From the NCBI GenBank assembly GCA_903919125.1, contig CAIXGS010000001.1, positions 1-53,038 on the forward strand: a DNA stretch of 53,038 bases. Reading direction: 5' to 3'. The notes beneath the pieces were generated by a model. It worked only from the letters and a program-made list of their open reading frames with translations, did not search any database and had not been told where the DNA came from. Origin of the DNA: an uncultured Spartobacteria bacterium. Its GTDB lineage: Bacteria; Verrucomicrobiota; Verrucomicrobiia; Chthoniobacterales; Chthoniobacteraceae. Each line of letters opens with the position of its first letter. Position 1 is the stretch's first letter. Below, one piece after another: positions 39,749 to 43,618 of this stretch. Made by a program: the position numbers and the translations under genes.

Positions 39749-40975
39749 ATGACGGCCGACTCGTTTTTTCGTCGAAATCTTCTCGCTGTCGCTCTGCTTC
39801 ATGTGCTGGGGCTCGGGGCCTTCTGGTTTTTTTCTCAGACGCACAAGACGCCAAAGGCACCTGAGGTCTTGTGGTTAGATGGCCCAGCAGCAGGGGGAAG
39901 CTCTGGAGCGGAGGCTGGGCCAACCCCGAGTGGTGGCCAGAAAGCGCCCTCCCCAGTACCGGAAGAATCGTTGCCGGATGTGCCAGCCCCTGTTCCCAAG
40001 CCTGAACCACAAAAGCCTGAGCCTGAGCCTGTAGCACCCCCAGTCAAGGCGTCTCAGAAAGAAGTCGCACCGGTACCAGTCACAGAGCCGACTCCGAAGG
40101 ACGAGCCTACTAGCGCTATTGTACTGCAAGCTGCCAAGCCAGCGCCCAAACCCGTGCCGAAACCTGAGGTAAAGCCCGTGCCCAAACCCGTACCTAAGCC
40201 TGAGGTAAAGCCCGTGCCCAAGCCTGAACCGAAGCCCGAGGTAAAGCCTGTGCCCAAACCTGAGCCGAAGCCTGAGGTAAAACCCGTGCCCAAGCCTGAG
40301 CCGAAGCCTGAGGTAAAACCCGTGCCGAAACCTGAGCCGAAGCCTGAGGTAAAGCCCGTGCCCAAGCCTGAGCCGAAGCCCGCCCCCAAGTCTGAATCTA
40401 GACCCGAGGTGAAGCCCACGGCCAAACCCGAAGCGTCCCCACCCAAGGTCGTGGTTCCCAACGGGAAGGGTGACTCCGCAGCGCCCCCTGCCGTTCAGGT
40501 GGTGCGTGCTGAAGTCCTCCGTGCGGAAGTTGTCAGGCCAGGAAATGGCAGCGGAACTTCCGGAGACGGGTCCGCTGGATCCGCTCAGGGCCGCTTTGGA
40601 GGGGGCGCTTTAGGCAACCGTGCCGGTTCCGGTGGTTCGGGCAACGGCACGGCGAATGGCAGGGCTGCTGGTGGACCAAGTGCTTCTGAACTAGGACGCT
40701 ACAATCAGATGATTCATGAGCGTTTTTACGGCGTTTGGGAGCAACCCATCTCAGTGGTGCGTTCTAACCAGAACTTCGTTACCATTTTAAAAATTCGCAT
40801 CCGCAAGGACGGGTCTATTATCGGCAGTGAAATAGTTACTCCCTCGGGTAATCCTGCCATGGATGAATCTGTTCAACGAGCGGCGGAAAAAGTGCAGCGC
40901 ATTGAGGCGCTCCCGACTGGAATGATTGCGGACCCTTACGAGGTGCGCATTGCATTTAAACTCGACCAAGGTTGA
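39749..40975 (+). CDS. tonB: Energy transducer TonB/TolA-like protein with long Lys-Pro spacer
   Basis: The 408-residue product has an N-terminal membrane helix (about 11-32, [18 protein letters not shown]). A long Pro/Lys/Glu/Val spacer (about 75-235) contains six copies of a 12-residue unit ([12 protein letters not shown] type). A Gly/Ser-rich stretch and a C-terminal TonB/TolA domain follow (about 310-408: [41 protein letters not shown]). The spacer should span the periplasm. It is the third gene after exbB and exbD. Its last 20 nt overlap the converging gene at 40956. Naming as TonB rather than TolA is provisional. Confidence 0.9.
40166..40381 (+). repeat. 36-bp tandem repeat in the tonB spacer (6 copies)
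   Basis: GAGGTAAA recurs at 40166, 40202, 40238, 40274, 40310 and 40346, exactly 36 nt apart. The unit encodes [12 protein letters not shown] with a few synonymous changes between copies. The exact spacing and near-identity suggest recent unit duplication, so spacer length is likely to vary between strains. Confidence 0.95.
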
Positions 40976-42218
40976 CGCTTGCCTTGCCAGCCCGAGGGTC
41001 AAACTTTTCTCCAAACGAGTTTCCGGGTTTCTGGGCTGCCCCGACTTTTTTGAGGAAAAACGTCCTCGAAACAACCCCTTCTGGGCAAATCTCGTTACGC
41101 ACCCTGCATTGAAATGCAAGCATCGAGTCAGCGGGCTCCAGGGCGACCTCTAGCGATGGAGTGTTGCAACCCTCTAGGGGAATGGAATCTCCCTTGGATT
41201 CGTCCCACGCCTCCCATTGAAATTGAAGAGGCGTGGCTCCAGTCGCAACAACCTCCATCTTCACGGTTTCGCCGACAGGGGCGCGGAGTACGATTGGAGT
41301 CGTTGAGTCAAAGATGGGTGTCCCTTTGGGCTGTAATTTGGATTTTATGCCCGACTCCATCTCTAAAGGCAAAGTCTGTTGCTGCGCAGGAGTCGCCGCC
41401 GTCCGCTTTGGTGGAGCGTAGGTCTGCGCAAAAATGGGGCTCGCTAAGGTAGGTTCCTTGGAGAGCGTAACCTTGTCAGCAATTAGCTCTGTTGCATCGG
41501 TTTTGGGCTCTTGTGAAAGCGCTGCGTCATCCTGCTTTGTCGGTGCTCCTGCGGGGGAGGTTGCGGTTGCATCAGCAGTAACTTCGACATCTGGGCGAGT
41601 TGCTGACTGTGGTTCCCCGAGAATATCCTTTCCGCTAGTCTCCTCACTTTTAATCGCGGCCGCCCCTCGTGCGTATGCCTGTTTGATGCTGGAGTGGAAG
41701 TCCGGTCGAGGAGGTGCCTTGTAGGGTTGTGCGGGTAAGGGTTGGGTGAGATGTATTCGCCTCAATGCCAGCGCGTCGTTCGGGGAGGACTCTGTGCTGA
41801 TTTCGACAGGGGTGCTCTGCCGAGAGGCATCCATTTGCTTTGCCTCTCGGATAGACTTTGCAATTTTGGCCAAACTTGCAGCCCGCTCGGTAGTCAAATG
41901 CCGCCTGAAATTCAGGCACTCCGCCTGTGTGACGGGTGCCGTCCACTGGAACTGAGCCAAGCCCGAAAACGACTGCCAATAAGGATTTTCCGGCCAGCGA
42001 CTGAGTACCTCGCTTTCCGATAGGCCGGTGATTTCGCTTAGGATAATCAGGGATGCGAGGATCCAGATTTTCCCAGCGCTTAATCCCTCTTGGGTTGCCT
42101 CAGGAAATAAACCGACCACTTCCGCCCAATCCAATTCCCGCGTCACCTTTGCTAAAGGGCGGTTCGGATCGATAAAATCTAGAAGCTTCGGTTTCACTAG
42201 ACCGGAAACGTACACCAT
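40956..42218 (-). CDS. IS5-type transposase N-terminal domain fused to Ig-like domain (no catalytic domain)
   Basis: The 420-residue protein (ATG at 42218; an upstream ATG at 42287 would add 23 residues and run close to the divergent bioA start) has three parts. Residues about 10-115 match the DUF772-like N-terminal domain of IS5-family transposases: LLDFIDPNRPLAKVTRELDW, LIILSEITGLSESEVLSRW, ENPYWQSFSG, then a helix ending FRRHLTTE. Residues about 120-300 are a low-complexity linker. The C-terminus (about 310-405) is an Ig-like beta sandwich (GETVKMEVVATGATPLQFQW, MLAFQCRVRNEICPEG). The DDE catalytic domain is missing, and there are no flanking terminal repeats in view, so this looks like a repurposed fragment rather than an active element. 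It has no signal peptide. Function is unknown. Confidence 0.75.
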   Translation of the reverse strand: MVYVSGLVKPKLLDFIDPNRPLAKVTRELDWAEVVGLFPEATQEGLSAGKIWILASLIILSEITGLSESEVLSRWPENPYWQSFSGLAQFQWTAPVTQAECLNFRRHLTTERAASLAKIAKSIREAKQMDASRQSTPVEISTESSPNDALALRRIHLTQPLPAQPYKAPPRPDFHSSIKQAYARGAAAIKSEETSGKDILGEPQSATRPDVEVTADATATSPAGAPTKQDDAALSQEPKTDATELIADKVTLSKEPTLASPIFAQTYAPPKRTAATPAQQQTLPLEMESGIKSKLQPKGTPIFDSTTPIVLRAPVGETVKMEVVATGATPLQFQWEAWDESKGDSIPLEGCNTPSLEVALEPADSMLAFQCRVRNEICPEGVVSRTFFLKKVGAAQKPGNSFGEKFDPRAGKASVNLGRV

Positions 42219-42304
42219 TGCGGCAAATCTTGGAAATACGGAGAAAGTCGATTTTATCCCCACGCCTTCTTGCTGGATTCCTGACAACCCATCACGCTTT
42301 TCCC

Positions 42305-43618
42305 ATGGCTTCTGCCCCTAAATTTCCTTCAGTGGAAACCTTGTCTTCGGCTCAGGGAAATCCTCTTGATTGGGATAGGACCCATGTCTGGCACCCCTTT
42401 ACCCAAATGCAGGAATGGTGCGCCACCGATCCTCTTTGTCTAGTGGAGGCTCAGGGGGCGCGCCTCTGTGATTCGGAGGGGAACTGGTACATTGATGGAA
42501 ATGCCTCGATCTGGACCAATATTCATGGCCACCGACATCCTCGCCTCGATTCCGCCCTCCAAAAACAGCTCGCTCGCTTTGCCCATACTTCGTTTTTAGG
42601 CTTTACTCATCCCTTGGCCGCTCAACTTTGCGCAGAGCTTTGCGCCCTCTGGCCGCCAAACACACTCACCCGCGCATTTCTTTCCGACAACGGCTCCACG
42701 GCCATCGAGGTCGCGTTGAAAATGGCTGCCCAATACTGGCAAATGCTCCAACAGCCTCAGCGCCGACGTCTTGTTGCATTTCACGGCGCCTATCATGGAG
42801 ATACTATGGGCGCCTCCAGTCTTTGCGGCGTCCCGCTATTCACCGAACGCTTTAGCGCTTGGCAATTCCCCGTAGAGCTCGTTGATTCGGCGGAGGCTCT
42901 TGAGAAACTCCCAGCCGAAGAAATCGCCGCTGTGGTCATTGAGCCCCTCGTTCAAGGTGCAAACCAAATGCGACTCTGGCCTGCGGGACTGCTCTCTTCT
43001 GTTCGCGCCTGGTGTGATCGGTTTGGGGTGTTACTCATAGCCGACGAGGTGATGACCGGCTTTGGGCGCACAGGCACCCTCTTTGCGTGTGAACAGGAGT
43101 CTGTAGTTCCCGATTTTGTCGCTCTTGCAAAGGGCCTCACTGGAGGGTATATGCCACTGGCAGCCACACTTACAACTGAGAATGTTTTTCGAGCGTTTCT
43201 TGGTGGGCCGGAACGCACCTTGTATTATGGCCACTCGTATTGTGGCCATGCGCTGGCCTGTGCCGTGGCGCTGGAAAACCTCGCGATTTTTCGTGAAGAA
43301 GGGGTGTTAACCCGCCTTCAAAATCAAATTGTGCTACTGAAAATGCTTTTGGAAAAGGAGTTAAAACCCTTGCCGAATGTCTACGAAGTGCGTCATATCG
43401 GGTTTCTCGCAGGCATCGAATTGCGTCACCCAGACGGCGCTCCCTTCGCGCCGGAGCTCGGGATGGGGACGAAGGTTTGTCGCGCAGCGAGGGGATTTGG
43501 ACTATTGACCCGTCCGATTCGCGACACTGTCGTCTTGATGCCGCCCTACTGCATCACCGATGCTCAACTCGCGCACGCTGTAGGCGCAATCGCGGCTGCT
43601 TTGCGATCCTGTTGTTAG
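42305..43618 (+). CDS. bioA: Adenosylmethionine-8-amino-7-oxononanoate aminotransferase
   Basis: The 437-residue PLP enzyme converts KAPA to DAPA in biotin synthesis. Motifs: WDRTHVWHPFTQMQEW near the N-terminus (BioA-type), GNWYIDGNASIWTNIHGH, FLSDNGSTAIEVALKMA, FHGAYHGDTMGASSLCG, and the PLP Lys in ALAKGLTGGYMPLAATL. The WHPFTQM and SxWxNxHGH features favour BioA over other class III aminotransferases. The frame is open to 42218, but the ATG at 42305 gives the normal N-terminus. bioF is encoded about 4.4 kb away on the opposite strand, and no bioB or bioD is in the window. It is divergent from the IS5-domain/Ig gene. Confidence 0.92.
   Translation: MASAPKFPSVETLSSAQGNPLDWDRTHVWHPFTQMQEWCATDPLCLVEAQGARLCDSEGNWYIDGNASIWTNIHGHRHPRLDSALQKQLARFAHTSFLGFTHPLAAQLCAELCALWPPNTLTRAFLSDNGSTAIEVALKMAAQYWQMLQQPQRRRLVAFHGAYHGDTMGASSLCGVPLFTERFSAWQFPVELVDSAEALEKLPAEEIAAVVIEPLVQGANQMRLWPAGLLSSVRAWCDRFGVLLIADEVMTGFGRTGTLFACEQESVVPDFVALAKGLTGGYMPLAATLTTENVFRAFLGGPERTLYYGHSYCGHALACAVALENLAIFREEGVLTRLQNQIVLLKMLLEKELKPLPNVYEVRHIGFLAGIELRHPDGAPFAPELGMGTKVCRAARGFGLLTRPIRDTVVLMPPYCITDAQLAHAVGAIAAALRSCC

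Follow-up and report, generated by a model that had tools for sequence, protein, structure and literature searches.

TldR proteins descended from TnpB, and to our knowledge the well-documented domesticated bacterial transposases are few and lie mostly outside the DDE class (RAYT and TnpB-derived proteins). One account calls TnpAREP/RAYT the first prokaryotic domesticated transposase (PMC8266576), and TldR proteins are RNA-guided transcription factors (PMC13418256). Here we describe a gene of an uncultured Spartobacteria bacterium (GCA_903919125.1, CAIXGS010000001.1; the window, by which we mean the whole stretch of DNA analysed, is 53,038 nt long) that is, in all probability, a domesticated host gene derived from the N-terminal domain of an IS5 transposase. 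Like TnpAREP/RAYT, it would be a transposase-derived gene kept by a bacterial chromosome; however, RAYT belongs to the HUH enzymes, has IS200 transposases as relatives, still carries its catalytic part and is associated with REP repeats, whereas here only a non-catalytic IS5 domain is present. Like TldR, it would be a protein of transposon origin that has lost its catalytic activity and been taken into service by the host or, in the TldR case, its phages, but it belongs to another protein family, and no RNA partner is indicated for it. With the IS5-family transposases themselves (NF033578/PF05598) the window protein shares the N-terminal 125 or so residues, including a W..NPYWQ.FSG core; in contrast to them it lacks a DDE domain, a search around its gene gave no flanking inverted repeats, it is present as a single copy, it is fused to an Ig-like domain, it has lost two invariant arginines, and its NF033578 score of 68.7 bits falls below the family cut-off of 275. 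In its Ig-like sandwich it resembles the bacterial Ig_3/I-set-like domains in giant open reading frames (ORFs) of the same genus, but here a single such domain stands behind a transposase domain and no signal peptide is apparent by eye. In the open-licence literature we found no description linking DUF772, the Pfam name of the N-terminal domain, to domestication; the works that name DUF772 were unrelated by title.

Reading frame and domain architecture

Positions 40956-42218 of the window form one long ORF on the minus strand with a 420-aa translation (the numbering used below), while the plus strand across the same interval is stop-rich and holds short frames only. The gene probably starts at a GTG at 42197 and runs to a stop codon at 40956-40958 (40956..42197, minus strand; 413 aa), an assignment based on orthologue starts and on purifying selection. 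We place the start here rather than at the ATG at 42218 adopted by the initial annotation because the codon aligned with the GTG is the first codon of the orthologues, and because the ATG overlaps a TGGTGTA element (42211..42217, minus strand) kept upstream of them. This element precedes the start codon by about 20 nt and could be a promoter or regulatory site; it occurs (as TGGTATA in one case) 20-21 nt upstream of the start in seven of nine orthologues, and since TGGTGTA is found six times in the window against 2.4 expected, the motif alone is not rare. The GC and GC3 of the gene are those of its neighbours. At its 3' end it overlaps tonB (plus strand, stop at 40975) tail to tail by 20 nt (40956-40975); at several orthologous loci the two genes are separated by a gap.

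From N- to C-terminus the protein comprises an IS5-like N-domain, a segment bearing a conserved motif, a linker of variable sequence, and an Ig-like sandwich followed by a short conserved tail. The N-terminal phrases on which the IS5 assignment had originally rested (FIDPNRPL, GLSESEVLSRW and ENPYWQSFSG) are all present in the translation, and the profile search bears the assignment out: NF033578 (transpos_IS5_1) matches residues 9-135 with E=5.2e-19 over profile positions 6-132 of 419, and matches the orthologues with E=9e-16 to 6e-17. Pfam DUF772 (PF05598) gives E=3.9e-4 and 20.8 bits, just under its cut-off of 23.1, and three orthologues pass the gathering score (24.5, 23.6 and 23.3 bits). 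The corresponding IS5 N-terminal (DUF772-type) domain (41814..42194, minus strand), when modelled alone with AlphaFold2 from 28 sequences, is predicted to be helical (pLDDT 88.7, pTM 0.82). The match to the profile breaks off at the point at which a transposase would pass into its catalytic part, and a tblastn search that used two DDE domains as queries found none in the window, in agreement with the earlier view that the DDE domain is gone. Transposon-like ends had likewise been reported as not in view, and we found no flanking inverted repeats and only one internal palindrome of at least 12 nt in 40700-42500, a search that short or degenerate ends could escape.

Behind the N-domain, in an otherwise disordered region, lies a conserved short motif around YKAPPRPDFHSSIKQAYA (41661..41741, minus strand; residues 160-186), in the alignment of which Y166, K167, A168, P169, R171, K179 and Y182 are invariant in nine orthologues and whose dN/dS is 0.06-0.13. 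It is followed by a variable linker rich in A, P, E and K (41331..41660, minus strand; residues 187-296) that is predicted to be disordered (pLDDT about 30) and is only 17-19% identical between clades. The Ig-like beta-sandwich domain (41043..41330, minus strand; residues 297-392) rests on structure prediction and comparison. AlphaFold2, run on a nine-sequence alignment, predicts a compact beta sandwich over residues 301-391 with pLDDT of about 85. Foldseek returned 93 PDB matches at E<=0.001, and those listed were mostly Ig domains or Ig-like phage capsid proteins; VIA gave Z scores of 9-11 (best 10.9) over 82-97 residues, mostly with Ig or Ig-like domains. Pfam gave no Ig match in the window protein and only sub-threshold Ig_3/I-set matches in the orthologues (best Ig_3 E=0.007, 17.2 bits against 30). 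Thus, the Ig-like sandwich proposed at the outset stands on AlphaFold2 and Foldseek, with the Pfam profiles staying below threshold. The tail carries the motif NSFGEKFDP (40996..41021, minus strand), in which N400, S401, F402, G403 and E404 are invariant in nine orthologues. Both YKAPPRPDF..S.KQAYA and NSFGEK, lying in unstructured parts, look like binding motifs. The DNA pattern for NSFGEKFDP is confined to this gene in the four genomes searched, the YKAPxRP pattern has one further match each in G000 and G009, and a search through these two short motifs found no partner.

Conservation, selection and origin

A full-length, uninterrupted orthologue with the same fusion is present in nine of the 12 genomes of the genus, whose members live in freshwater (46-79% identity to the window protein over the alignment), which is what the search for orthologues in Verrucomicrobiota had been proposed to look for. 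In addition, G006 encodes a divergent DUF772+Ig protein at another locus, so that the fusion occurs in ten genomes; G002 has a divergent Ig-only protein at another locus, and G008 has neither kind of homologue. The G006 gene (L031:7330-8292, minus strand) lies between a flagellin-like gene and a feoB-like gene, an arrangement seen in that genome only, and we regard the flagellin-like neighbour as chance. The initial annotation correctly placed the window gene between the tonB operon and bioA, and the usual neighbourhood of the orthologues is exbB-exbD-tonB and/or bioA: the gene and tonB are arranged tail to tail in G000, G009, G001, G003, G005, G007 and G011, and has bioA on its other side in G000, G009, G003, G007 and G004. 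In G006 and G008 bioA comes immediately after tonB and nothing is encoded between the two; the G002 contig breaks off inside tonB, which leaves this slot out of view. Because the neighbours vary among orthologues, there is no tight coupling to tonB or to bioA, and the gene appears to form a transcription unit of its own. Since three of the 12 genomes have no syntenic gene, it is dispensable for the genus; these three group together with support of 92 in a tree of seven neighbouring proteins, which is unrooted and has missing data.

Outside the genus, no full-length relative was found in samples that covered the family (40 genomes), the class (384) and the phylum (387). A scan of 84,980 GTDB species with two peptide patterns, which could miss distant relatives, returned full-length relatives only in records with contigs of the genus genomes, and these records are metagenome-assembled genomes labelled mostly Chthoniobacteraceae or Spartobacteria. 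A viral origin was rejected, with no relative in the viral_contigs scan and no match in PHROGs, and so was a defence-system protein, with no PADLOC match.

The dN/dS test that had been suggested as a check points to purifying selection. Among close pairs within clades, where dS is measurable, NG86 estimates are 0.03-0.09 for the N-domain and 0.04-0.10 for the Ig domain, and 0.16-0.37 for the linker, which is thus looser than both folded domains; several pairs have dS values close to or past saturation, which makes single values rough. Even so, the frames are intact and both folded domains are clearly constrained. The initial annotation allowed that the ORF might be a broken transposase copy, which would have decayed and become joined to a different frame by chance. 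The domain indeed covers no more than the first third of a transposase, with low Pfam scores, but the low dN/dS in both domains, the full-length frames intact in nine genomes, the conserved location and the recurrence of the same fusion in ten genomes rule out a broken copy, and we give this explanation a negligible probability. Rather, the same-fusion orthologues, the conserved neighbourhood, the purifying selection, the single clade described below and the lack of transposon features strongly favour the domestication that had been proposed.

A tree built from 28 N-domains unites the G006 protein with the nine orthologues in a single clade (98/98), in which the G006 branch is long and its placement less sure; one domestication and one fusion therefore suffice. 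The host gene would have arisen a single time, no later than the ancestor of the genus, when the N-terminal domain of a transposase of the NF033578 type was joined to an Ig-like domain and the DDE part was lost. The N-domain is only 24-28% identical to the nearest IS5 transposases, and the capture is therefore old. A possible source of the Ig-like part is offered by the giant ORFs of the same genus (1000-13000 residues), in which the family profile matches Ig-like stretches at E of about 1e-4. One of these ORFs, on G004:C1 (L023, L084), stays open over 13,322 codons and has Ig-like stretches matching the profile at about that level.

DNA contact or protein contact

The N-domain has its core in common with the sampled transposases (W31, W75, N78-P79-Y80-W81-Q82, G86, F90 and P95). 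However, two arginines that are invariant in 11 sampled transposases and in stand-alone Bacteroidota proteins (see below) are replaced in all nine orthologues (W52; H/F/Y107), whereas R105 of the FRR motif is kept. In IS5 transposases these arginines may contact DNA, and their loss here is only suggestive of a domain whose transposon-end recognition was lost and whose fold was kept for another contact. Of the proposal that the transposase domain had been domesticated as a DNA-binding module, the domestication stands, while nothing measured supports DNA binding, which is still conceivable: two arginines are lost, the net charge is near zero and the fold searches matched no DNA-binding fold. Of these points, we discarded net charge as a criterion, because the N-domain of real transposases of the same type is likewise near neutral or acidic and charge does not discriminate. 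The Foldseek search against the PDB gave no match at E<=0.001, and no PDB chain matched convincingly by sequence; the best VIA match (Z 4.6), to a sigma-factor helical region, was taken as noise, and we do not claim that the N-domain fold is new.

We tentatively read the protein as an adaptor and not as a DNA-bound regulator, although we hold this part of the reading at somewhat below even. The protein would be cytoplasmic, no signal peptide being apparent, and two-headed: the helical IS5 module would be a head for binding or dimerisation and would have given up the recognition of transposon ends, a disordered tether carrying the YKAPPRPDF motif would space the two heads, and the Ig-like head with its NSFGEK tail would hold a partner protein. 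Taken as a whole, a domesticated DDE-less IS5 module within a cytoplasmic two-headed adaptor seems to us moderately likely, a grading that is a compromise between those for the host gene and for the adaptor. Against the adaptor stand the retained R105 and the fixed upstream place of TGGTGTA, and a DNA-linked role such as autoregulation is possible. These two features, together with descent from what is presumed to be the end-binding part of a transposase, speak for a domesticated regulator in which DUF772 would bind host sites (its own promoter, the bioA side or the tonB side) and the Ig-like domain and motifs would recruit or sense. We consider such a regulator rather doubtful, since the two arginines are lost, no DNA-binding fold was matched, and the neighbours vary, so that there is no fixed regulatory target.

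An IS5-type transposase N-terminus lies elsewhere in the window's own genome (L002:1402-1911, plus strand), truncated where contig C34 of G000 stops. Truncated transposases can block transposition, and a DDE-less N-domain might repress transposition by binding IS5 ends or by joining an IS5 transposase, given that IS5_1-type transposase sequences occur in relatives and one, incomplete, in this genome. Nevertheless, the low identity of the N-domain to the IS5 transposases found, the loss of the invariant arginines and the fact that most genomes of the genus gave no IS5 of the NF033578 type in our search make a repressor very improbable.

DDE-less DUF772 genes in other bacteria

A second type of DDE-less gene is found in Bacteroidota, where a stand-alone 156-aa DUF772 protein matches NF033578 with E=3.8e-39 over residues 12-131 only. 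One full-length copy is found in each of seven genomes out of eight, and the eighth is split over contigs (L053:5818-6285, plus strand; also L048, L050, L051, L054, L056 and L057), and one genome with the stand-alone gene also has a full-length 454-aa relative. Several of these genomes have the gene order rsmE, DUF772 gene, AmmeMemoRadiSam B/A, spermidine-synthase-like protein, radical SAM enzyme. No DDE domain was found near the gene, the one unsaturated pair gives a dN/dS of 0.04, and the three arginines invariant in transposases are kept; by these comparisons it is possibly an independent domestication. A third type, observed in two genomes of genus g246, which belongs to the same phylum as the window, is a DUF772 gene of 192-201 aa (L157:1318-1893, minus strand; L158:1378-1980, plus strand). 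Its proteins share a conserved acidic tail, DAESDELLLPLQ; the dN/dS of the gene is 0.22, and no DDE was found in the available flanks.

These two further DDE-less stand-alone genes make repeated domestication of DUF772 plausible. It is close to an even call, leaning slightly against, whether DUF772 is a reusable host module domesticated without DDE at least three times: as the Ig fusion in the genus of the window, as the stand-alone gene in the Bacteroidota rsmE-AmmeMemoRadiSam cluster and as the stand-alone gene with an acidic tail in g246. Overall, the window gene is, in all probability, a maintained gene in which a non-catalytic portion of a DDE-family transposase is coupled to an Ig-like domain, a kind of gene of which we found no description in the open-licence literature. 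Together with the stand-alone genes it makes a role of DUF772 apart from transposition directly testable; if the repeated domestication is true, DUF772 would have a general non-catalytic function not described in IS5 biology.
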